From Acorus gramineus (lineage: Eukaryota > Streptophyta > Magnoliopsida > Acorales > Acoraceae), in contig CM060853.1 in assembly GCA_030737835.1 (NCBI GenBank), forward strand, positions 3,263,152 to 3,327,151: a stretch of DNA of 64,000 nucleotides. The letters are read 5' to 3'. Both the position numbers and the translations under genes were made by a program. Shown piece after piece: positions 8,736 to 54,646 of this stretch. Within the stretch, counting starts at the first letter, position 1; the number at the start of each line of letters is the position of its first letter. The notes under the pieces are model-generated. The model had not been told where the DNA came from. It saw only the letters and a list, made by a program, of their open reading frames with translations, and did not search any database.

Positions 8736-11700
8736 TCATCGTGCCGCCCACATTCCCTCTAATGACTGGAAGTTCACATCCAACCCAGTGGCCGACTGGA
8801 GCCAATCCCACACCCTCCTGGCCATAGGACATAAAATGAACATATGTTCGATGGACTCCGAATCTGACCCACACATGATGCAAGTCCTATCCAAATCCGG
8901 CACCCACTTCACATGATATTCTTTGGTCAGAAATTTGCGAAGGTATACAAGCCAAGTGAAAGCCTTCATCTTCAAAGGGAATTTAAAAGACCAGATCTCC
9001 TTCCATTTCTGAGCAGCCCCAATAGCCACCGTTCTCTCTCTACGCATCCACTCATAGCAACTATGAAACAAGAAGCGCTCCCTAAGATTTGGCACCCAGC
9101 ATAAATTATCCCGGGCAATTTCCGACAATGCAATGGGCTGAAGGAGTTCCAAGAGGCTGAGATAGCTGTCAATCTCCTCCTCATGCAGATTACGACGGAC
9201 TTGTACCTCCCAAAACCCAGCCTCACCCCTTTGGCACCAGAATTGATGGACCAGCCCCACCTGATTAGAAGCAATGGCAAAGATCAGGGGGAAGGAAGCA
9301 CATAGCGGACGCTCGCCCAGCCACAGATCTTGCCAAAACCTAACCACCCTGCCTGACCCAATCTGCCACCTGATCCTCTCCACAAAGCCAGCAACACAGG
9401 CCATGATACCCTGCCAAAGTCAAGAGGATCTTGGATTATCCACGGAAGCAGAGAATCCCCAATTCCCTAATGCTCACGAACCACCCTAAACCACAGCAAC
9501 TCTGGACTATCAAGCCACCTCCACAACCACTTACCAAGAAGAGCACCATTCATATCATCAAGATTTAGAATACCAGCCCCCCTTGACTTCTTGCTACCAC
9601 ACACTATATTCCATTTCACCAGGTGGACCTTTTTAGCAAAAGAATCCACACCATTCCAAAGGAAACACCGACGAATCCCATCTAAGAGCCGGACCACCCC
9701 TTTCGGAATTCTAAACAACGAGAGGAAGAAGATTGGGAGGTTGGAAAGGACTGCCTGAAGAAGGGTGAGTTTTCCTCCAAGGCTGAGGAAGCGACTCTTC
9801 CACCCCTCCAATCTCTTGTCAAAGTTAGTTATCAAGGGGGACCAGACTCTCTTTGGTAGAACTCCTAGATGAAGAGGAAGCCCCAAGTGGGCTATGGGGA
9901 ACTGTTGGACAGAATAGGAGAGGATGGAAGCAAACCAAGCAAGCAATGTTTGCTCTACATTGATCCCTAGCAAAAGAGCTTTTTCCTGAAGTTTATACAG
10001 AGGCTTGACAACAGCTCGAAACAGCGACATACAAACTGAATTCCTCTCACTGATAGCTCATCTGCTTCACGAAGAACCACCGTGTCGTCTGCATATTGAA
10101 CATGAGACAAAGAAGAACCTCCCCTTTTGCATTGAAGACCCGAAATCCAACCATCAGCTTCGACCGACTTCATCATCCGACTAAATACATTTGCCACTAA
10201 AACAAAGAGGAGGGGCGAAAGCGGATCACTTTGACGCAAACCTTCATTTATTGGAAAGAACCCACAAGGCTTACCATTGACCAAGATAGAGGCCTTTGCC
10301 GTTGTAACATATGCAAGAATCATACAAATCCAATTGGGCTCAAAACCATAACAGCCGAGAAGGTGAAATGGGAAATCCCAATCTATGTTATCATAAGCTT
10401 TCGCAAAGTCCAATTTCAATATAAGCCCCTATCTGGGCTCTTGATGGACAGCAGATATACACTCTTGGGTAGCCATAAACCCATCTTGCAACAAGCGGCT
10501 TGGAATAAAGGTTGTCTGGTTCTCCTCCAGAAGGAAGTCCAACACTAACCGGAGCCTATTTGCCAGGACTTTGGAGATTAACTTGTAGCTGCCATTCACA
10601 AGACTAATTGGCCTGAAGTCTTCAATGTCCTGAGCACCATCTTTCTTAGGCACAAAAGCAATAAAAGTAGCATTCAAGCTACCAATGCCTTGAGAAGACC
10701 GAAAGAAGAGGTCAAACATTCCCATAACATCTTCTTTTACTAGAGGCCAAAACTTTTGATAGAAGCGAAGCCCAAACCCGTTAGGACCCGGTGCCTTATT
10801 TGCCTCCATCCCAAATACAACAGCTTGGACTTCCTCCTCCCAAAAATTTGATTCCAACCGCTGAAGGCAATGAGATGGGATGCGAAGAAGGTCCCCATCA
10901 AACCAAGGGGGGCGCCACATCCTCCTTTTCTGAAAGACATTGAAAAAATGATCGGCAAAAGCCTCTTCAATAGCCATCTGATCTGTCAATTTAGTCCCAC
11001 TGACGTTTAGCTTGATAATTGAATTGAGCCTACGCCTTTGATACGTTACCTTATGGAAAAACTTAGCATTGAGATCACCTTCTTTCAACCAAATAGCCCA
11101 AGATTTTTGCCTCCACTCAGCTTCTTTCTTCTTACTAATTAAAGTCATTCATCGTTCAGGTTGGAACGGGTCGCAGAATCATCCTCATCAAACAGACCCG
11201 CCTCCTCTAAGCCTTCAAGAATCCCCAGCTGATCAGCTATGAACTGTTTTTCGGCACGCTTCCGACGGGACTCAGCTCTGCTCCAACCTTTGAGAACCAA
11301 CTTGAGACGTTTGATTTTGAATGCTATCAACCTCACACCACACAAACCAAGGGCCTCCACACGCCAAGAGGATTCCACAATGCCACGAAAGTCCGGACAT
11401 AGGAGCCACCAATTTTCAAACCGAAAAGGCAGACAGGATGGAGGTACACTACCTCCCAACAAAGCCAAAGGGGAGTGGTTAGAGTAGGTACGTGGGAGCC
11501 CCTTCAAGAAGCAGTGAGGGAAGGTAGATTCCCACTCCAAATCGACCAAGACTCTGTCCAGTCTTGCTAAGGATGGAACCTCCCTAAGGCTACTCCAAGT
11601 GATAGAGTAGTTTGAAAGAGGAACATCAATTAGACCTTCCACCGCAATCCAGTCAGAAAATCTCCTCATCGCTTCTGATATCCCACCAACTCTGTTTCTG

Positions 11701-18681: not shown

Positions 18682-21600
18682 TCAACGGCTCACCCTCACC
18701 CCCGCTGGTTGAACCGACGGTGACGATTGCTCGCACCCACCACCACCCAATGCGACCGCCGCGGACTCTGCGTGCGTCAGCATATACTCATAAATCTTCT
18801 TCTTCACCCGCTCCACGGTCTCCGCAACCGCCCCACACCCATCGCCACTGTCGGTTTTTGCGGCCCCGCCTATCTCGTCAAGCCAACAGTCGACCCTCTT
18901 GAGCTGCGTGAGCATCGACTCGTCTGTGTCGGAGTCCAGGAACCTCTCCACGTACCCCAGGAACCAGTCCCGGGATTCGGCCCGCACGGCCTGGGCGAGC
19001 TCGGACGCCTCTTCGAGGCCCGAGCCACGGACCCATTCGTGAGGATGCACACACGGGGCAGCCTTGGACCCGGTCGGTGGATTCCGGGCTCTCGCCTGGC
19101 CCGCCTTGGCTGGTTTTGTCAACTCATCGAGGACCCGAATGAAAGCTGGACTGGGCCGGTGCTTGCGGTGGTACACGGAGAACGGGGAGAGGTCTGCAGA
19201 GAGCGCGGCCTGGACCCACGACGAGGCGTGCTTGCGCCTCTCCGAGGAGAGGCTCTGCACGTCTTGCGAGGGTTCCGATGGTGGGGATGTCCTCGGCAGG
19301 GAGTCCGCGATGAGCCCGGCCCGGGTCAGATGTGTATGGAAGTTCAGGAATTGCTCGACTGTCGAGTTTGGGTTGTCGTCTTTGGCAGACGAAGAGAGAT
19401 CGGCATAGAAGCTGCAAATGAAGATTGGAAAACACATTTAGGGTCTGTTTGGAAACACAGATTGAAAAGTAGCTTTTGGAATAAAGCTGTTTTTTAAGAT
19501 GATTTTAAACCTTGACTTTTATTGGGATGTTTTTTTTTAATTCAGGAATCAATATTTGAAAGCAGTTAATGTTTGGCAGAGAAAGTTGCTTTTCAATTCA
19601 AAAAATCGATTCCGACCAAAAAACGTTCTTTTTTGTGCTTTTCAAAACTAAAAAATTTTGAGGGAAAAATTAAAAAAAATCCAGCTTCCGATTCTGAATA
19701 AAGCTGCCTCGTTTGGCTGCACGATTTTAGTTTTTCGGCTTTTCAAAAAACAAATGCTGCCCCAAACGTGCAATCAATCAGGGCCTAAAAAATTAACGAA
19801 GAAAACATGTCTCGCATTCAAGCATGAAATTTTAAGCGAAGGCATAGACATTCGCGCATGCATGTCTTGCATTCAAGTATGAAATTTCAATGTCAATCAA
19901 GACTGACAAGATATTAAGTGAAAACAAAGTCTCAGATTCACAAGTATGGCAGGTTACTTAACAAAAGAAATACATTGATCAAGTATTGAACAGTCAAATA
20001 TGAGTTTTCACTACATGAAATGAAAAAAAAAAAAAAAAATACATCTTTCAGGAGGACTAGTTGCACTACTGTTGATAATAAAAAAATGACCTTACATTAA
20101 GAGAGATATTTCCAACATCTTTATACCATGATTATACCAAAGCCAAATGGGTAAGGAAGTCTAAGGGCCAATTTGATAGCTTTAGTCTCTAGAAGGAAAA
20201 TTCATCTTTTTCAGGAATCCAGTTCTAATAGATTCCATAGAAGGAAAAAAATTGTTTGGAATGTCCTAGAATGAGCACAGGAATTGGATATTCTAAATGC
20301 AAGTTTCCTAGATGTTTTGTCAGAAGGAGAATGAGAATAAACGTGAAACTGCCCCCAAAATTAAATATAAAAAGACACATTTAATATAGCGTCTACATCG
20401 ATCCTTCGAGACAAATCATCCGTCAAAGTGCCAAACTAATAATCAGTTGAAACATGGTGTAACACACTGTCATAATTTCAATTGATATCCAGCGGATCTG
20501 TATAGCAGCTAGTTACAACAATGAAGTAAAAAAGCAGAATATGTGTAGGGAAAGGACACACAGCTTCTCATACAAATAAAATGAAAACATAACATAGCCT
20601 ACGAAAGCTGTGCATGAATGTATCTTTTGAAAAGCTGTCTAGTATTTATGTATTAAACAAATAAAAATAAAGCTTCATGTTCAGGTCATCTATTTAGATG
20701 AGATGTCTGATGAAGAAAACCATGCCAGCACAAGGAGTAAGGAATTCTGTAATCACTGAATCCATATGCAATGTCTGATAAACACTGCTAAAGGTTCAAT
20801 AGAATCCATTAGTAATAAGAATAGTTATGCAGCGAAATGTAACCGGCAAGTGCAAAACTGGATGACTACATGGAGAAAATGAATTATTTAACTAGAGATG
20901 AAGTCATCCTTATAACATAAAAATTGGATCAAAATTTTATTAAAACATTACAATCCTCCACATTTTATTTCAGCTTGAATGAAAATTTCAGTGCACAAAT
21001 AGTTTGATGTGAACATTTATAAAAAAGCTAATTTGTATATATAAAGCTAATTTGTATATATACCTTAAGCACCGAATTAAACTCTCCGCAGCAGAAGCCT
21101 CTTGCATAGCCTCAATAGCGGCCATTTGTGCTGTGTCTCTGTATTTGAAAACTTCCTGGAATAAAGATACTAAGGACTAATTAGTATCAGGATCAAACAA
21201 ACATAGTATGGGGACAGACTCACTAAATGTGTAATAATAGGGATATATATCATATATAAGCCATGTAAAGAAATTTAAACTAGACTTAAATATCCCTACC
21301 AATTGCCCTGAAAACCACGTCACAAAAATGCTCATGCACCCCATCACTCAAGATGACCATTAACCCATCTGGATTCAAGACTTACTCATGTTGATAGGAT
21401 AAGATTTTACCAGAAAATAAAACAAAACGCTTACCTACCAAAAACAATTACACTTTGCAATGACTAATAATTTTCTATATCTCAATAATTACAGCCCAGT
21501 TGTGTTGATCAGTTGGTAGAAATATATAGTAAAAATATTTGGATACATATAAAGAAATGAAATTATTCCTGTACTTTAAAAGATGTTTGTAAAAAATGTC

Positions 21601-24182
21601 TAACCAAATTGGTATATAAAAGAGCAAGAAAATTAGTCCAACATTCCATGAATATACCTTGCCAAGCTTTGTTAGAGATGGCGGAAGTGATGCCCACAAT
21701 GAACTTCCATTGGTGCATCTGTTGTTATTCAGGGAAACCTTGACCAAGTTGTTGGGGATTCCATTATTCACAACATTTGATGACTTCTTTATAGCAGGAA
21801 TTCGAAGCCTATTCGTTTTATCAGAATCGTCCAAAGCTCCATTTGTGATTATTTTCTTTAAAGGAGCTCCAATTTTGCTTTCCTCTTTAGGTGACAACTT
21901 TTTAGTTGTTGGTGGCTTTCTTGGAGGAACCTGCATAAGAAAGAGAACTAAAAAAAATATCACTATATATTATGTGGTACTCTTTTATTTTCAAAAGGAA
22001 AGGAAATCGTGCAATAAATTCAATGGAATATACAGTTTAGTATCATCAAGATGTGAGAAACCACCGTCATCATTTTAACATTTTTGGATTCCACGTATAT
22101 TTTACCGGCAAGGAAAGGACATGCTTGTAATTCAGTAAATTCATATATCCAACAATGCAACTTGACAATCAAATCAAAAGTAAACTAGATGGATTGATTA
22201 TTGAATAAAGAAGTGGAATTTTAAGTACAACTGTTACTGAAGATCCGATAATAAAAAAACTGTTACTGAAGATGAGGACTAAAGGTGAATTAAATTAAAA
22301 TCCTTATGAACAAATACATGTGTGCATCCAGCAAAATCCAAGTGACCAGTTCACAGCACCCTCACAATATGGTTCTTCAAAACATGATAGTCTATGTTTT
22401 CTGTACATAAACCACCATAAATTGATTTTATGGCCTCTGATACATATGCCAATTATCCACTGATCAAATCAATACCACTGTGGGGGAGATCTGAAATGTG
22501 GGGGCTGTAATACCTTAACCAAGAGATATTGTCTACATGTTTGCCTGTGAAAGTGCCCTCAGGATTTGGACATATGTTGAATTTTCTTAAAATCCATTAT
22601 TTAATAACATCAAGGCGTAGTTTGCCAGGGGAATAAGAATACGAGGATAAGTCATCCCAATTATAAGGGATAAGAAGTTTATCATGTTGTCTTTATTATT
22701 TATTCAAAATCAGAACAAAAGGAGGGGATAAATATATTCTAGCCTTTATGCAGAACCAAAAAAAATCCCCATTTTTTATTCAAAATTGCGACAATCCACA
22801 CTTTATCTCAATTTATTTTATAACAAACCAAGATAAAGATTAGTTGTTCTTTAACCATTTATCCCATTGCCATACGAGGCCCCTTTTTTTCGTTCCAAGT
22901 GGTTATATTTCCATCGTATACAAGATTGACATAACCAAAACAAAGGATATTCAAGAGGCAGTTCCATATCAAACCAAAGACCAAGCAAGCACAAGTATAA
23001 AAGGGAAAATGAAAGAACTCTCAGGCCCCGTTTGGAAAAACTTCAAAAATAATTGATGCTCTAAAATGGTTAAATAATGGATTACAGACAAAGCTATTCT
23101 CAACCATCTTTTTCCCATTTTGTCGACTTTTAATACATAAAAAACCAAAATCCGAAATCAAAAGTTGAAGTAAAAAAACATCCATTTAGAACCGATTATC
23201 CGAAAAACCAATTTAGCAAAAGTTGAATCATTTTGACAACTGGTTCCCAATGGGACCTTAATAGGGTAGGCAGGTTTTCCAATTCTAAGAATCAAGCATA
23301 ATTAGCATCACCATTAGAACTATACATCAGTATGAATTATAGAGTACAGAAAAAGAAACTCACCAAACTGCTTCGAATATCACTCTTCGCATCAAGCTTT
23401 GCTCCCCTAGAAACTGAATTCTCCCTCCCCTTCCTCTCCACACTCCCCTCCCAACTTCTCCTCAACGCTTTCTGTCCCAATTCAATCCCACCCAACGAAT
23501 CCGCTTTCTTCCCCGACTTGAAAACTGAACCCATTTTCTCCATCAATCCCAACCTATTCGAAGCCGAAGAGGTAACCTTTTGTTGTTTCCCAACACTACT
23601 AGAGAAATTCTCAAAAGAGGCGGGCAATGAATAACAACTCGGAGGAGAAGAAGGTGTCGACCTTGAATTCATTGATTTCAACCTCACCCCAACCTCTCTC
23701 TTCTTCTCCATCGAATTCTTCTTCTTAATCGCCTCCCCAACTTTAGCTCCATTCAATCTCACCGACTTCAGCTTATCCTTTGGACTATCCGAATTGAGGA
23801 AATTGAGAGGGCGAGTGGCGACAAGGTCTTCGGGGGTGCCAAGGCAAGGGTGCCTGCCCGGGACAGGACGGACCCCTATAAGGATTGGCACAGGCGAAGA
23901 CGATTCAAGACGGTCGACATGGATGAATTGGCCTAATTGGATCTTGTCATTCATCACAAGCTCATCTTGTCCATCAGGGAGCGAAACATAGGTGGCATGG
24001 GAAGAGTCAGAGACCTTCAGATAGAAACCATGTTTGGGGGAAAGATGGTCCCTTCCCCCAGCCAATGCGGGAACAATCCCAATGACTTGGAGGAGCGACG
24101 ACCGGTGCTCGCCCGCAACTTTGAAGTCCGTATCCATGTGTTGGAGGAGCTTCAAGAGAACGCCAGGGACCAATGCAGCCAT
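18682..24182 (-). CDS. DUF936 family protein
   Basis: Four exons (24182-23364, 21930-21658, 21155-21064, 19411-18682) join in frame to 637 aa. The start [16 protein letters not shown] is the conserved DUF936 N-terminus, and residues 1-120 carry the strongly conserved block ([49 protein letters not shown]). The middle (about 125-345) is Ser/Lys-rich and low in complexity. The C-terminal part is encoded by exons 3-4, starting with an alanine-rich helix ([15 protein letters not shown]) and ending in a helical region with a conserved tail. This is a plant-specific family. A relative in Arabidopsis has been described as a microtubule-binding protein, but I infer no function here. Exon 4 is GC-rich, unlike the introns, which produces long antisense open frames. 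Confidence 0.93.
19437..19790. mobile_element. hAT-like MITE next to DUF936 exon 4
   Basis: Starts TTTAGGGTCTGTTTGG and ends CAATCAGGGCCTAAA. The ends are a loose inverted repeat of the 'GGGCCTGTTTGG' type common in plant hAT-like MITEs. It lies only about 25 bp upstream of the exon 4 acceptor, within intron 3. Confidence 0.4.
23023..23265. mobile_element. hAT-like MITE in DUF936 intron 1
   Basis: The left end CAGGCCCCGTTTGGAAAA and the right end TTCCCAATGGGACCTTAA form a short imperfect TIR. No ORF is present. Confidence 0.45.
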
Positions 24183-25179
24183 TGTTGGTGGTGCTAACAA
24201 GCTTCTCTGACTGACTTGCGGGGAAGAAGAAAAGGAGATCCAATGCAATACCCAAAATGGATTTGATCGTGAAAATCGGAGTTTTGAAGGGTAACTTGGA
24301 TTGCAAGAGATGTTATGAGCTGTGGCATTTGATTTCTCTGAGACCCATGTTAAAAAATTTGATCTTTATCAAAAAATTTGATATTGGGTTTTAAATAAAT
24401 AGAGACTCATCAATTACAGATCATAAAACATGAAAAAAAAAATTGACCTTTTAGAGCGCCTGAAGAGAGAAACACAATAAACAACAATTCACAACCAATT
24501 GAAAAAAAAAATCAACAGTGACTGATTAACTGATTTTTAACTAGAAAAAAAAAAGTAAAAAACCAACCTTTTCGACTCTAATGAACGCAACTTGTCCAGC
24601 TCTGATCAAAGAAGAGGGAAAACAAAAGATTTTCGAAGACAAAATGTCATCTGAACCGAAAAAATGGAACTTTTTGAGAGACCCATTTGGAGTAATCCAA
24701 AACCCAGTGAAGATCACAAGCAGAAAACGCAACCCATCAATCCAAGATCGAAATTTTATCACTGGTTGGGTTGGATTTTCAATGACCCAGATGAAAAGAA
24801 GCAACAGAAACCATTTTTGTTCTTGGATTAGAAACCAAAAGAGAAGGAAACAAAGTAAAACAGTAAATATAGGAACAGCGACAGTAAATATAGGAACAGA
24901 GAATTATGAGGAACAATGAGAAGGGCCAGAGATCCTTCGAAATTCGATGATGGGTTCTCTTTTAATGAAAAAATTTAACCCATTATACCCGACAAACAAC
25001 AGACGATGATCTGACAACACACATTGGAGACTAATCTCTCTGAATTCTGAAACACAAAATAGTCTCTCACAGCAGAGCTGTTGCAAGGGGAGCCAGAGTC
25101 CGAGAGCTTAAATTGCTCCGCGAGTCACCCAAAAAAAAAATCCATACTTTATGGGAACATCCATCATCCATATAATAAC
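24183..25179 (-). other. DUF936 promoter / 5' UTR region
   Basis: About 1 kb upstream of the DUF936 start. No second gene is visible. A spliced 5' UTR is possible, but I cannot place its exons. Open frames of up to 112 codons on the opposite strand have no family resemblance. Confidence 0.4.
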
Positions 25180-28241: not shown

Positions 28242-31200
28242 TCATGGTGTTTTCTTCTTCTGGTTGAAAAATAAACTCCATCCGTAAGTGTTGCCTTTAC
28301 GCGCCGCAGCTTCCACTCGATTGCCGCCGATCTAAAAGACAGTACAGTTGAGAAGAAGATGAGTGCAGTCATGATAAATAAATTTCATGATATGATTAGA
28401 AAGGAAAAACATATACCATCATAATAAAAGATTACAAAGTATTTAGAAAAAAAATTGTAAATCAAACATCTTCCTCTCATGTTTAACAGAAAACAAACAG
28501 ATTTTGTCTTCTACATGTCATGTGGGATGGTGATATAGTCCACATAGTATAAAAATGGATGGTTTATGCTTATATGTAAGGGTAATTCTTACACAGAAAG
28601 ATGTGTTTTTAAAGTCGTGAACACAAAGGGGGCAAGATAGACATCATCTTGCTGTGTAAACAGATACAATTGGATTGATGTCACACATAAAATGAAGGTT
28701 TTAGGTCTAATACCTCAAAAGAGAATTTCTTTAAACAAGTTCCAAAATAAACCATTGTCCAAAGGCTATGTATTAATGATCTTGATGGAGATAAAGCAAT
28801 GGTTTCAACAAGAGATTTTATTACATAAAATTAGGAGAAAAATATAAGCATCTAACTGAGAAGAGAATAAAACTTTTTTAACAATCAGGCATTGGTGAGC
28901 AATTAAATTTCATTATTTCAAGAAAATACTTATACATAAGAATGCTGGGAAAACTGAAACAAGCAGACACCTTAGCTCATTTTTTTTTAACATGCATATT
29001 GGTAATGTATGGGAAAATGAGCTTCTCATAAACTTCAATTTATTGATATTATTATTGTTTATCTTCTTATTAATGATTGTTATTTCTATTCTTATTCTTA
29101 TTGTTGTTGTTGCTAATCTTATTCTTCTTATTGTTATTATTATTGTTAATCTTATTCTTTGTGTATTCTTATTTTTATTATTGTTTATCTTCTTATTAAT
29201 GATTGTTATTTCTATTCTTATTCTTATTGTTGTTGTTGCTAATCTTATTCTTCTTATTGTTATTATTATTGTTAATCTTATTCTTTGTGTATTCTTATTT
29301 TTATTACTGTTATATGTTATTACTGTTATTGTTATTGCTATGTTATTCTAGTAGAATGAAAGGCGGCTGAAAAACTTCAGTGGACCACGACAGAAAAGAC
29401 ATACCTTGTCCATGAACCAATAGCCAATGGTTGGCATGTACTGTACCAGGTACATAACAAACAATACAGGCTGCACAAACAGCAAAAGTTTAGACAACAT
29501 TAGTGTTATAAGCATGCAAATCCGCAACAGCTGAATGTTGAAAAATAGTAAACACTTTAAAAATAATCTGCAAAAAAGTATGAACTGCTCCTGCAGTAAT
29601 ATTAGTGAAATTCATATCATAAAAATGTTCTCTACATCATGTGCTTAAGAATGACCTGATTGGATATCCAGACTTCTTTGAGTCCATGGGTAGCTGCAAC
29701 TATTGTCAACTCTGCACACCTTTCTGATGACACGCGTTTCTGCCAAGATGAGAAAACCAAAAGGTTCATAAATATGATTTATGCAGTTTTTGAAATTGTT
29801 CTGATGCCCGAGAAAATGATCACAAAGACCCACAAAAGTTTTATAAACAATTTTTCTCGCATGTGAATGACAATTTAAGGGAACTGACTACTTATGATAG
29901 TGCTCAAGAAAAATCAAAACTTTTTTACACGTCTTCAAGTTAATAAAAATTTAAAAATGTTGCAAGCATGGCTTACCTCTGAAGTAACACTTTGTCCGGA
30001 TGACTGTGGTTGAGAAACCTTTGATGTTTCTATTGGTCCAGGACAAACAACAGTAACTTTAATTCCCTTTTGACATAACTGCAACATGCATGAGGGAAAA
30101 TGTAATATGTAGAGAAGTAGAATATCAATCATTTGATGAAGTTGAAATTGCAATTGTTATGATTAATTTAGCACATTGCTTCAACTCCAGAAAGAATAAA
30201 AATTATGTCTCACAATGGAAAAAAAATTACTTAAAAGAAAAGTACAATAACATCAAAATGATTAGTATCACGCACATGTGATGCATCGTTTCACAGAAGA
30301 GAGGGCAACAGTGATGACAGAAATGTTACAATAGCGATGGAAAATAATTACATTGAGGAAAATTAAAATAGAAGCTCATAATAGCAGCTCATGGACCAGT
30401 TTTAGCTTGACGTTTGGAAGTTGGAAAGTCGCCTCAGTTTTTGTCACAAAGTGGAGTGGAAAAACCAAACCCCACAACCCAAAGCATCGAAGAACAAATA
30501 GAATTTGCTAAAAAGCACTAATATGGATATCAGACTAAGAGACAGACGATACTAGACGACTTTGTTCTAACCGAAGCAATACTGGTTTGTTTAAAAAAGA
30601 CAAAGACGGGCAACAGAAAGCTTTTGAAAGCATAGTGCACCTATGTAAATAAGCATTAACTCTATCTATACAATGTACCTCAGAACGAAAAGTATGAAAA
30701 AATCCATTTAAAGCATATTTAGAAGCAGAGTACACAGCTTGACCAGGGGCAGGAGACTTCCCCGCAGCACTGCTCATCTACAAATAAGAATCACTCGGAC
30801 AATGAGAACACCAACTGATGATACTGAAATGTAGCACATATGAAAATGAAGAACGAGGCACTAAAAACGGTGCAGTAACAGGATCTATAACATATTACCA
30901 CCACGAAATGGCCTTTCCCCCTCTTCAACATGTAAGGCGCTAGAAGTTGTGTAAGAGTTATAGTCCCAAGGACATTTATATTGAATGTAGCCTAATCACA
31001 AGAGATCACTGATAAATGTTAGCACAAGTTCAGGATGAAATAAGTATAACAAACTGGCAAATGATACCTGAAGGCCTTCTTCGCTGACATCCAAAACTGT
31101 CGTCTTCTGCAAGCCAAAACACATACCAGCAGCAATTATCATAAGAGATTTTTCAATAATTGATTCCCAATGTGAAGATTGATAATGAAAAAGAAAGATC

Positions 31201-33405: not shown

Positions 33406-37241
<3,836 letters not shown>

Positions 37242-38820: not shown

Positions 38821-39746
38821 TTTTAGGAAAAAATCCATATGACCAACCCCATACAAACTGCTCAATTTTTTTAAGAAAAAAATCCATATAAGCAAACCTA
38901 CAAACCGCTCGATATCCGCACAACACCCTACATTTTCTTGAATTCTATATAACCACACTATGCAAACATGAGGTTAAATCCATGTGAATAGGGGTGGTAA
39001 ACGAGCCGAACGAGCCGAGCTTTGACCTGCTCAGGCTCGGCTCGTTTAGTATCAGGCTCGGCTCGGGCTCGGCTCAGCTCGGGAACGAGCTTCATTTTGT
39101 GTTCAAGCTCGGCTCGTTGGGCTCGTGAAAAGCTCGGTTAAAGCTCGGCTCGACTCGTTTGTTAAACAAGCCAAGCTGAAGCTCGAATCAAGGCTCGACT
39201 CGGGCTCGTTTAGCTAAAAAAAATCTTGTTTAGCATTTGAAAAGTCACATTTCATAAATCATAACACCTTATACATGTGAAAGTAACATAAGTTCGGGCT
39301 CGGGCTCGGCTCGGGCTCGGCTCGTTAACCTTTTTTCAGTTAAGTAAACGAGCTCGTCTAGGCTCGGGCTCGGCTCGTTTACAAATCGAGCTTTAAAAAT
39401 TGTTCAAGCTCGGCTCGTTTGTCTAATCGAACGAGCCTGAGCGAGCTTTAACCGAGCCGAGCCCGAGCTGCTCGGCTCGTTTACCAGCCCTATGTGAAGG
39501 GTAAAATTGTTATTTAAAAGGATGTATTTAAATTTTTTAAAATAAAGGGGTACAATGGTAATATTTTTAAAACATAAATTAACATAATAAAATATTCTTA
39601 GAATAATCTAGTTTTAATAGCATATTTTAACTTGGTGGTTTATTTGGATTTACCTGTACGTTTACCGGGGGGTTATATGGAATTTATGAAGCTACCGGGT
39701 GTGAATATAGAACAGTTTGTAGGGGGTTGTACGAATTTTTTCTCCG
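38821..39746. mobile_element. Family-1 TIR element carrying a nested element
   Basis: The left end repeats GAAAAAATCCATATGACC, and the right side has GGGGGGTTATATGGAATTT and GGGGGTTGTACGAATTTTTTC. The CGAG-rich element at 38989-39492 is inserted inside it. The original element was about 420 bp. Confidence 0.65.
38983..39498. mobile_element. CGAG-rich TIR element with target-site duplication
   Basis: The TIRs are TAGGGGTGGTAAACGAGCC (from 38989) and GGCTCGTTTACCAGCCCTA (to 39492), flanked by TGTGAA on both sides (38983-38988, 39493-39498). The interior is built from repeated GGCTCGGCTCG / CGAGCCGAGC motifs in both orientations. Its GC content stands far above the surroundings. Ends and short duplication resemble hAT-type nonautonomous elements. 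Confidence 0.85.
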
Positions 39747-40082: not shown

Positions 40083-43000
40083 CTAAAACGCAATCTTGTT
40101 CACCATGGTTCCTAGAATCTGCAGTGTGTTAAATGAGTAAAGGGTCAATAAGAGCTCTTCCAATCGCTTCTTCGGATCGGGCCTCCCCACATTCAACCTA
40201 CACAGATCTTCTTGTTGCACTTTGTTCTCATCCTCGATCACTTCCTTATATTTGTCGAGCAGACACCGCATTTCCTGCTCATCATTCAACAAACAATGTG
40301 ATAGAAAAAGAGGTTTAAAAAGATAATCAACCCACATTTGAGAAGAAAAGGAAATATGGAAGCATGGTATAATGGCGTATCGCCACTGACAACTCGTATC
40401 GTTAATCACAGTTACAAAAACCTTTCACTTTGATTTCAATGCTACTCTAATTTCATAAATCTTGTTTGTCAGAAATTCCATTTTACTTGCTACAGATATT
40501 CGATAATAGAAATGATTTTTAATAAAATGTAATTCACTACACTTATAAGAAAGAATATTTTCCTCCCCTTTAGAAAATGTGTGTAAACTTCCAAACCTTC
40601 CATTGTCGAATCAAACCATATCATGAAATGACCTAAACAAAAAAATATATTTATGAGCACACATGATTCAAGGGCATGCCCTTTCTCTGGACATGGGTGA
40701 CAGTGAAAAGAAAATACATGAGGTTTCACTTACCTTGACTGTTCGCTCATTAGTTTTAGAGAGTGTATCAAACCGCTGAAGTGCAAAGCCATGAGCCCAG
40801 TGCTTCTTTCCTATACACCGCAACATGTTCTTCTCAAGCATATTGTATTTGTGTCTGATGGGTATTTTACAGTACAATTTACCCGACTCATACATCGCCT
40901 TCTGATAAGAAGAAAAAAAAAGGTTATCAAGGGAAAAAATAAAAAAAATTACTCAAATAACCAATTCAATTATTTCAAGCGCATCTCACATCTTTTCTTT
41001 GGTCTTGGGATACATTCACTTGGGATGTGGTCTCATATGTCCATCCTCGTTGTATTGCAACATGGTCAAAATAACGGTATGCAAACATGTGTACCTTCCC
41101 ATAGCAAGGAAATGGATCTAACACAATGTCAATGAACCTTCGAACATCACCTATATAATCCTGCAAGACCCAATTGGCGTGATCGGCCCCTTAAAGCATC
41201 AGGTAAGAGATAGAGCATAGAAAGATCTTGACAGAAAACATAACTGGATCTACCACAACGACAATTGACCATTTATTTTGATCTTTATATTTCTGCAAGA
41301 CCCAATTGGCCTTTATAATAATATAACATTCAAGCTCCAATCTTTCTTCAAAATTTTTTTTTTGGTGTTCAATAGTTTAATTGAAAACCCCATGGAAATA
41401 GCATTTTTATGCTAAGTTGAGGCATTTTTTTTAAAAAAAAACCATATCAAAGAAAATAAAAAGTGCACAAGTAAAGGTTGTTACTCATCAAAAAATTAAT
41501 TTGGAAAATCTTTACAACTCATAATTAGTTTGGTAAACAGTTTTTTGGTTATTTTGGAAAATCAGCCCCAGCCCCAGCCCCACCACACAAAAAAACCTCT
41601 TATTCTTTTTCATTTTTCTTTCCTCTCGCTCTTTTTTGAGAGGACAATGCCTAAATCCTATAAGGATACTAGGAGGAATAAAGCAACATTGACAATGAAA
41701 AAAAAAACACATAAATCAGAGCCACTAATAAACAGACCTCCATCATAGGAAACTTGTACTCTTTGTCAAGGCCTGCATTTGTGGTGTACGAACCCACCAC
41801 ATACTCATCGCTATAAAATTACAACAAATGCAATCTGTTAACAACAATTGTTTAATAACGATGCGCTTCTGGACAAATTAAAATTCAACTACGAGAATCC
41901 CTTGTACTTTTTTTTTTTATAAACGGTGGGAATTTAATCTATGACATCATGGTTTCAAATTTGCTGTCAACCATGAGCTATTTGTCCAACCCCAAATTCA
42001 TGATTTCTTGTTTATACTAAGTACCCAAAAAGGCATCTCCCATCTTCACTAAAAAAATGCTGAAAATATATTTAAATAAATATAATAGGAACCAAGCAAT
42101 CACACAGAATGCATTAACTGTATCAATAAAACAGGATCCAGCAAAGTAGAGACTGCCCATGTTTACAAAGCAATGAATCAATGTATAACCAATGTATATA
42201 TACCTTATGATGGTCTGGGATAGCAATTTGAGCATTGTATCTGGGAACTCATCATATGGAACCACATCCTGCGGCAACTGAACCACGTCCACCACCTCCA
42301 CTGCGTACTCGCTCAAAATGGTTCCATATAGGATCCCAAACACTGGCGCGGGAGAGAATGCCCTCACTGGCCCCCTCAACACCAACAATCAACATCATCA
42401 ACAAAGGCACAACACCTCCAACAGGAATAAAAAATTCTCCTATTGCAACATAACTCTACAACAGAATGTCTTCCAATAAAACCATCAAAATATCAAATGC
42501 AGGGATGAAGAGAGAAATCATTTTTAATAGAAACACAGCAAGGAACATAGACAAACGCAGTAATATAAAGAGATCAAACACACATTACACAGACCCCAAA
42601 AAAAACTAATTTCCCCCTCTAAAGCCATCAATGGTCTAAAAAGAAGCTAAAAATTTCCTCCATCAAATGTATTTAAGATCGATTCTTTTGTAAAAGAAAC
42701 ATATCAAGGAATGCACTACATCCGTTCAAGAACCGAATTCTTTCAAATGAACATCTCTTCCGTATGAAAGATATCAAGAAATCTTATTAGCCTCAGCTGA
42801 AGCCACTAAAAATCGATTTTATGAAAGAAACCCGAACACAAAAAGCTCATCAAACAATAGAATTTTGTACGGGAGACATCAAGAAACCCTGATTCGACCC
42901 CTTTGTCAAAGATCGAATTTTTGAACAAATTACGTGAAGAGAGTGAGAGTGTGAGTGAGTGAGACGTCAAGAAACCCTAATATGAACAGAACAAACTCCA

Positions 43001-43289
43001 ATTTGACTCCACAGAAGCTCATCAAACGATCCAAATTTGCCTCCGTTGAAAGCCCATCAAAAGATCGATTTTTTTTTATCAAAACACGTCAAGACATCCT
43101 GATTTGACTCCATTGTAGACAACCAAAGATCAAAATCGAGAAAGGGAGAGAGAGAGAGAGAGAACCGTGGGTCCAGATCTTGAGGAAGGCGAGGGGGGAC
43201 ATGAACACTTGTTCGGATGAGTCGAAAAACGGGTCATTGACTTGGAGATCGTCCGGTTCGGTCGGCCCACTTCGCAGTATCTCCTCCAT
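40083..43289 (-). CDS. RPN11-like protein lacking the JAMM catalytic residues
   Basis: Six exons (43289-43166, 42366-42204, 41810-41738, 41160-40990, 40901-40734, 40274-40083) join in frame to 296 aa. Intron phases (1,2,0,0,0) and the lengths of exons 5 and 6 (168 and 192 nt) are identical to RPN11, so this is a tandem duplicate of it. By hand alignment exon 6 is 27/63 and exon 5 21/56 identical. The MPN core is badly changed: [10 protein letters not shown] is GSYTTNAGLD (His to Thr105 and Asn107), the Ser/Asp pair is missing, and the Glu position is Pro49. No stop or frameshift interrupts any exon. An in-frame upstream ATG (43304) would add five residues. Inferred: a pseudo-MPN protein, perhaps a lid-binding decoy or regulator, or a decaying gene still open. 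Confidence 0.82.
41194..41292 (-). pseudogene. Relic duplicate of exon 4 in the RPN11-like gene
   Basis: Between exons 3 and 4 the acceptor context GCCAATTGGGTCTTGCAG of exon 4 is repeated exactly. The sequence after it reads KYKDQNKWSIVVVVDPVMFS, clearly like RPN11 exon 4 ([19 protein letters not shown]). It runs to a stop with no usable donor. It resembles RPN11 more closely than the exon 4 now in frame. Confidence 0.75.
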
Positions 43290-43323
43290 CTCTCGCTCAC
43301 TCACTCACACACACTCCACAGAA

Positions 43324-43329
43324 CACGTG
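43324..43329. promoter_or_regulatory. G-box CACGTG
   Basis: A palindromic CACGTG between the TATA box and the ATG of the RPN11-like gene, a typical bZIP/bHLH site. This is motif evidence only. Confidence 0.45.
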
Positions 43330-43358
43330 TAATCTTCATCAATGGCTACAAATCTCTC

Positions 43359-43368
43359 CTATTTATAG
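43359..43368 (-). promoter_or_regulatory. Candidate TATA box of the RPN11-like gene
   Basis: CTATAAATAG on the minus strand, 70 bp upstream of the start codon: a consensus plant TATA box at a plausible distance. It suggests the gene has its own promoter. Confidence 0.6.
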
Positions 43369-44252
43369 TCACTTTTACTGTATCAATACAATTTTTCATA
43401 TACCTCAATTGCTCATTCTATTCACCAAAATACGTATCTTATTAAAAAAATTAAAATTTTGAATAAATGATTAAGTTTTATTCTGATTGAAAAAGATAAA
43501 AAAGGGTTAATTTTTTATTTTTTTTTAATGATGTAAAAATAAATATCTTATTGTAGTCGTATAAAAATAAATAATTTTTATTTATTTATTTATGATAAAA
43601 AAAAAACTTTATTTTATATTAAAAATATCAAATTGAGGTTTTTAATAAAAAAAAAAGAGGACCCCTACGTAAAGAAGGCTAGTTTATTAGACAATTTTTT
43701 AATAACAATCTAAGCTGAATAAACAACTTTTTGTTTAGTTGTTTTTTTTTTGTTATTCTCATTGGAAAATGTAAAAATGACTTTTTGGTTGTTTTGTTCA
43801 CCTTGAATAAAGTGATGATAAATGGTTGATAAGGGATGAATAAGAGTTTAATTTTTTAAATGACAATTATACCCCATGGGAATAGTGTGAGAGATATATG
43901 ATTAATTTGATAGATGTGAAAGTTTTTGGAATCTGTGTTACTCTGTTAGGTGAGATAAATTTTTTAAAATGACAGATAAGAGTATTTTTATCCATTGGTA
44001 TAGATAAGTCTTGATAAGCAATTCCACCATTTCTTTAGAATAGTTATCAGACTTTACCCTAATTTATCCAGATATAACTATCAAAGTTTATTCTATCAAA
44101 ATAAACAATTTTTTTTAACTATTCTCATTTATTCTTCGTTATTCTTGCCTTATGTTCCACTCCATACGGGGTTGAGTAATATTTGGCGATAACGAGGAGA
44201 TTAGTTAAACCCGCCCCACTAGTCTTCTCCGGAATAACTTCAGCGACGGGGG

Positions 44253-52299: not shown

Positions 52300-54646
<2,347 letters not shown>

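Follow-up and report, generated by a model that had tools for sequence, protein, structure and literature searches.

What is an open RPN11-like frame, stripped of every catalytic residue, doing next to an ordinary RPN11 gene in Acorus gramineus, and is it still a gene? We addressed this in a stretch of 64,000 nucleotides (the window), where an earlier note, made from the sequence alone, had proposed that the frame is kept by selection for a non-catalytic product. The question matters since RPN11 is nearly invariant, the two intact copies of this genome differing at one of 308 residues, which makes a divergent copy that was kept for long notable. The explanation we favour, with a cautious preference and on the sequence evidence set out below, is that the paralogue is an old tandem RPN11 duplicate, now an MPN-minus pseudoenzyme, that is, or was until recently, a working protein-coding gene.

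Gene structure and loss of the catalytic site

The paralogue lies at 40083-43289 on the minus strand, 2.8 kb upstream of the canonical RPN11 (RPN11a, 33406-37241, minus strand), a parent-type neighbour with a complete JAMM motif that encodes 308 aa in six exons (37112-37241, 36718-36895, 35242-35323, 34600-34776, 34293-34460 and 33406-33597) joined over GT-AG introns of phases 1,2,0,0,0. As the earlier note had described, the paralogue also has six exons, its five introns are all GT-AG with the very same phases, and the exons join to an open frame of 296 codons plus a stop (296 aa). On the minus strand, exon 1 (43166-43289) carries the start codon, the N-terminus and the first part of the MPN domain in an open frame, and ends at a donor CCCACG|gt in phase 1 as in RPN11; exon 2 (42204-42366) continues the MPN domain with the catalytic Glu replaced by Pro and an Ins-1 loop five residues shorter; exon 3 (41738-41810) is the zinc-site exon, in which HSH reads TTN, SxxD is gone and three codons are missing relative to RPN11; exon 4 (40990-41160) holds the remaining MPN domain and the Ins-2 region; exon 5 (40734-40901) encodes a C-terminal part, and exon 6 (40083-40274) the end of the RPN11_C domain and the stop codon. 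The exon lengths differ from those of RPN11 by 6, 15, 9, 6, 0 and 0 nt, respectively, all multiples of three, and the shared lengths of exons 5 and 6 (168 and 192 nt) and their identity of about 40% (48/119 residues) were as first reported.

The start, the frame and all ten splice dinucleotides are intact, and the stops, frameshifts and lost splice sites that a pseudogene would show in proportion to its divergence are not seen. One qualification has to be added to this otherwise accurate part of the note: exon 2 stays in frame solely from the acceptor CAG|TG before 42366, which is homologous to the RPN11 acceptor, and a competing AG 8 nt 5′ of it would shift the frame and lead to a stop at codon 45. 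This alternative acceptor leaves some room for an artefact of the gene model or of the assembly, in which the exons are spliced otherwise or the sequence is wrong; with RPN11 boundaries and phases at all five introns, a single continuous frame, and the paralogue sitting on a genomic contig of 24.7 Mb, we regard such an artefact as very unlikely. The promoter claim fared less well. A TATA-like box, TATAAATA, does stand at 43360-43367 on the minus strand, 78 nt 5′ of the paralogue ATG, but it is weak evidence for a promoter of its own, because a similar match precedes the RPN11 ATG by 126 nt and two occur within 43290-44200 on the minus strand.

In Pfam searches, the paralogue protein matched RPN11_C (PF23594) with 61.1 bits (cut-off 27, E=1e-16) and JAB (PF01398) with 31.8 bits (cut-off 22.5), UPF0172 remaining below its cut-off, so that the JAB/MPN plus RPN11_C architecture is that of RPN11. 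A PDB search with an E limit of 10 gave 16 matches: 14 RPN11 chains with E <= 5e-4, led by 8amz_V (E=6.3e-40), plus an RPN11-like chain (E=0.065) and a portal protein (E=1.3), and not a single RPN8 chain. These RPN11_C and RPN11-chain E-values exclude a chance resemblance, and by homology the paralogue is RPN11-derived, with 108 of 295 aligned residues (37%) identical to the neighbouring RPN11.

Its MPN homology is free of zinc ligands, as in MPN-minus proteins. In RPN11 numbering the JAMM replacements are E51P, H112T, H114N, S122K and D125K, and P, TTN, K and K therefore stand in place of the complete E, HxH, S and D motif. The three catalytic losses named in the earlier note all held up on alignment: TTN occupies paralogue positions 105-107 (Thr105/Asn107), RPN11 Glu51 aligns to Pro, and the downstream Ser/Asp pair is absent, Ser122 and Asp125 both aligning to Lys, although the exact homology at these two positions is uncertain because a 3-residue indel adjoins them; none of the 15 residues following TTN is a Ser. 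Ins-1 is not of full length, with five residues missing. According to the available part of a structural study, this loop is needed for catalysis in Rpn11, and a role in placing the C-terminus of ubiquitin has been put forward for it (PMC4749569). Lacking every zinc ligand of the motif and part of Ins-1, the paralogue would be unable to act as an RPN11-type isopeptidase, and it probably encodes a non-catalytic protein.

Copies of RPN11 and the age of the duplication

The 398.6 Mb assembly, in which the window lies on contig C7, contains at least three RPN11_C loci: the RPN11 of the window, the paralogue, and a second, intact RPN11 (RPN11b) on contig C5 (L019:3822-6144), whose six exon lengths equal those of RPN11a and which accounts for the single protein difference mentioned above. 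A search of the genome with the paralogue protein returned 11 matches, six of them to the paralogue itself and five to exons of RPN11a or RPN11b, and a search of a collection of viral contigs for relatives of the paralogue returned none. The gene at 53284-54586 of the window has a translated match on C5 (26237632-26239427), on the same side of RPN11b, whose best piece is 90% identical across 70 residues; we take this piece to be RPL38. A segmental or whole-genome duplication linking the window and C5 is thus likely, short of shown because most other translated matches between the two are scattered and may be repeats. In the 19.8 kb of C5 around RPN11b (L019, L020), no copy of the paralogue was found at E up to 10, only RPN11b exons matching, and a more sensitive search of the 10.8 kb upstream of RPN11b gave only matches with E >= 0.5. 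If a duplicate of the paralogue ever existed on C5, it was dispensable, since none is found near RPN11b.

By NG86 and LWL85, RPN11a and RPN11b are separated by a pairwise synonymous distance of 0.42-0.49, and each of them is 0.90-1.53 away from the paralogue. When a synonymous clock is imposed and the paralogue branches off first, the tandem duplication dates to 0.62 or 0.66 neutral substitutions per site, compared with 0.22 for the RPN11a/b split, and under this clock it appears to be the older of the two events. The introns point in the same direction: in blastn comparisons (E up to 0.01) RPN11a and RPN11b are similar in four of five introns, while the paralogue and RPN11a share solely a CT-rich stretch in intron 1, and the older duplication is favoured for that reason. 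The alternative order, with the paralogue as sister of RPN11a after the RPN11a/b split, was not adopted on the strength of the introns. A fit with free branches counts against the older duplication, since it draws the paralogue closer to RPN11a (tRa 0.05-0.07, tRb 0.38-0.39); this pull probably stems from the higher GC3 of RPN11b (0.715, compared with 0.660 in RPN11a and 0.549 in the paralogue). At the 73 sites that differ between RPN11a and RPN11b, the paralogue matches the former 31 times, the latter 18 times and neither 24 times (p=0.085), and at those falling in codons with a kept amino acid the counts are 12, 9 and 6, respectively (p=0.66).

A protein phylogeny of five sequences rejected none of the five placements of the paralogue (AU p 0.16-0.91). 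The paralogue shows the plant state at 14 and the human state at 6 of 48 sites, and these, together with the tandem position, the shared intron phases and the unsaturated synonymous distance, indicate that it originated within the plant lineage. A Biopython ML distance between the paralogue and RPN11 (dN 1.46, dS 9.8) was discarded as saturated.

Selection on the open frame

Could a frame this divergent have stayed open by luck in a neutrally decaying duplicate? In neutral simulations at T=0.53, the mean number of stops was 9.0 with a flat base composition and 13.5 with the intron composition, and none of 300 runs was stop-free in either case; at T=0.6 the stop-free runs were 0/300 and 1/300 for the two compositions. 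Over these four settings, 9.0-14.4 stops are expected on average and none is observed, and over all eight settings (T 0.3-0.6) only 2 of 2400 runs were stop-free, both with the flat composition. Neutral decay is thereby rejected for the whole branch, and the variation of constraint among sites (below), the in-frame changes of exon length and the ten intact splice dinucleotides also speak against it. What it has in its favour is a dN/dS statistically indistinguishable from 1 under the synonymous clock; we consider it extremely unlikely.

That ratio deserves attention, since RPN11 itself evolves at a dN/dS of 0.003. For the paralogue, two alignments gave 1.03 and 0.91 under the clock (profile interval roughly 0.6-1.4), and the pairwise value was 1.16. 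With free branch lengths it was 0.63 and 0.55, on a branch that may include an RPN11-like stem, and there a fixed dN/dS of 1, which costs 3.0 and 4.8 log units of fit, is rejected. The paralogue's own mean dN/dS is probably near neutral. The earlier note had named a ratio near 1 combined with broken orthologues in sister species as the signature of a decaying pseudogene, and the clock estimates do show the first half of it.

The mean does not describe all sites equally, as two site classes on the paralogue branch fit better than a single dN/dS (2dlnL 22.7 and 21.8 for the two alignments). Substitutions were also more conservative than in the neutral model, though weakly so and possibly helped by the alignment (BLOSUM z 1.7-2.1, hydrophobic retention z 1.7-2.7). 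Taken with the heterogeneity among sites, the absence of stops where 9-14 are expected indicates that the frame and some of the protein were preserved by selection, the rest being free or adaptive. Since dN/dS is close to 1 despite the kept frame, the paralogue would be either loosely constrained throughout, or constrained in one part and positively selected in another. The proposal of selection for a non-catalytic product is thus upheld by the missing stops, the site-varying constraint and the in-frame length changes, but the ratio near 1 counts against it.

A gene that was selected for most of its history and was silenced too lately to have gathered lesions would leave much the same record. 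Once selection ends, a lesion of a stop, splice site or start is expected within T 0.04-0.05 (95%) and a stop alone within T 0.06-0.08 (95%), compared with a duplication age of 0.62-0.66, so that silence of up to about 0.04-0.08 substitutions per site is compatible with the sequence. The near-neutral ratio and the lack of a paralogue copy in the C5 regions searched near RPN11b are what one would expect of such a recent death; however, it has to fall in roughly the last tenth of the paralogue's history, and start, frame and splice dinucleotides are all still in place. We hold a recent death to be unlikely, although it is a serious contender, and if the paralogue is dead or dying it represents an unusually clean early stage of pseudogenisation. 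Either way, selection is likely to have maintained the frame over about nine tenths of the paralogue's existence.

Part of the divergence might be adaptive. With three sequences under the synonymous clock, a class of sites with a dN/dS of 3.5 or 2.9 on the paralogue improves the fit (LRT 10.0 and 6.7). In a pairwise clock model, the LRT for a class above 1 was 11.3 and 7.4, and none of 400 null bootstrap replicates, all from one of the two alignments, reached 7.4; over six masked and unmasked alignments it ranged from 7.4 to 11.8, values of 7.4 and 8.2 for identical data reflecting optimiser differences. The pairwise one-class fit of the genafpair alignment seems to be stuck at 1.00, and some fits gave a class with an implausible dN/dS of 33. 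These clock-based signals would suit a protein that has adaptively acquired a new function away from the proteasome, such as acting as a decoy for an RPN11-exploiting pathogen or serving in reproduction, and the available part of one article reports that a plant virus co-opts Rpn11 (PMC8260003). However, the signal is gone in the three-sequence model with free branches (LRT 1.27 and 0.51) and shrinks when slower synonymous change is permitted in RPN11 (down to 0.88 and 0.14), and we consider such a new role improbable. Positive selection as a firm claim was dropped, as it hinges on equal synonymous rates: absent with free branches, it is back under the clock.

Retained regions and possible role

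The preferred reading, that of an MPN-minus pseudoenzyme derived from RPN11, raises the question of which surfaces were kept. In RPN11 positions, identity between the paralogue and RPN11 is 6/22 in the N-tail, 21/44 at 25-68, 5/14 at 91-104, 6/29 at 105-136, 7/19 at 137-156, 7/39 at 157-196 (the least conserved stretch), 11/30 at 197-226 and 37/82 in RPN11_C. Within Ins-1 (69-90), 8 of the 16 aligned positions are identical, its flanks being well kept and level with the core. RPN11_C is more conserved than residues 69-196 (37/82 vs 33/117, Fisher p=0.016), these regions having been picked post hoc from the alignment, and in the N-half of the MPN domain, a region likewise picked post hoc, 21 of 22 hydrophobic positions are kept (binomial p 0.002-0.009 vs simulated retention). 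Whether identities cluster along the protein depends on the measure: window variance indicates that they do (permutation p=0.009), whereas runs of at least four identities do not reach significance (p=0.20). Close to the C-terminus, the paralogue and RPN11 share the motif LGTM.

Residues that are invariant in four RPN11s tell how much has been shed: 64 of 175 are kept over the whole protein, with 15/23 in RPN11_C, 14/35 at 30-68, where the MPN core is thus poorly kept, 7/20 in Ins-1 (6/20 in gaps) and 5/22 at 105-130 (8 in gaps).

If translated, the protein would be expected to fold like RPN11, with an MPN domain and C-terminal helices, to bind no zinc and cleave no isopeptide bond, and to act through surfaces retained from RPN11. 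The study cited above, in its available portion, describes RPN8, an MPN protein without activity, as the partner of RPN11 in the lid, where the two jointly touch every other subunit of the helical bundle (PMC4749569). Because RPN11_C and the hydrophobic positions of the MPN N-half are kept best and RPN11 and RPN8 contact the lid bundle, the likeliest role would be that of a partner, competitor or alternative subunit near RPN8. The MPN domain would most likely pair with RPN8, and the C-terminal helices may enter or compete for the lid helical bundle, in addition or instead; the paralogue could then serve as a non-catalytic subunit, an assembly regulator or a competitor of RPN11, perhaps only in some tissues or under some conditions. 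It is thus probably a fast-evolving pseudoenzyme acting via protein contacts, with RPN8 or the lid bundle as candidates. A role unrelated to RPN8 and the lid is also conceivable and binding to either could be lost, since only 64 of the 175 invariant residues survive.

A bolder version, in which some cells build a specialised lid with the dead pseudo-RPN11 in the place of RPN11 next to RPN8, is a long shot; if true, proteasomes without ubiquitin-chain removal by RPN11 would alter the choice of degraded substrates. More generally, a working paralogue would show the scaffold role of RPN11 separated by nature from its enzyme role, the active site and a portion of the loop that grips ubiquitin having been shed and the C-terminal region being best kept, and it would suggest non-canonical lids or lid-assembly regulators in some plants.

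Compared with known systems, the paralogue resembles RPN11/PSMD14, the MPN-plus JAMM deubiquitinase of the 26S proteasome lid, in its six-exon plan, intron phases, domains and LGTM motif, and departs from it in lacking the JAMM residues, in its shorter Ins-1 and in its low overall identity. The closest functional model, for a non-catalytic lid role, is RPN8/PSMD7, the natural MPN-minus partner of RPN11, which likewise has an MPN domain without a catalytic site; the paralogue, however, carries RPN11_C and matched no RPN8 chain, and its loss of catalysis is, from these comparisons, independent of that in RPN8. CSN6, eIF3f and Abraxas/Abro1 are catalytically dead MPN proteins as well, but they are old families in their own right, whereas here RPN11 itself was duplicated in tandem, in a single plant genome.

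MPN-minus proteins (RPN8, CSN6, eIF3f, Abraxas and Abro1) are a known class that act as scaffolds, as stated in the available part of one article (PMC9313428). Judged by titles and abstract openings, none of the open-access papers that our searches returned describes a plant RPN11 pseudoenzyme or inactive duplicate; the accessible part of a Populus deubiquitinase survey lists two RPN11 genes and makes no mention of an inactive copy (PMC8281628), and RPN11 was omitted from a Brassicaceae and Poaceae survey, as far as its accessible part tells (PMC6651606).

Elsewhere in the window, a GGCTCG-rich element at 38990-39491, between RPN11a and the paralogue, has terminal inverted repeats (AGGGGTGGTAAACGAG.. 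/ AGGGCTGGTAAACGAG..) and the direct repeat ATGTGAA at both ends, and presumably resembles a non-autonomous hAT-type transposon. Fragments of a LINE-type retrotransposon lie at 8736-11148 on the minus strand, where zf-RVT gives a match and RVT_1 falls just short of its cut-off. Also on the minus strand are ORFs with a DUF6857 domain (18682-19437, 193.9 bits) and with a plant DUF936 domain (23337-24365, 183.2 bits), and at 28899-29351 two long ORFs on opposite strands cover an internally repeated low-complexity stretch that is probably non-genic.
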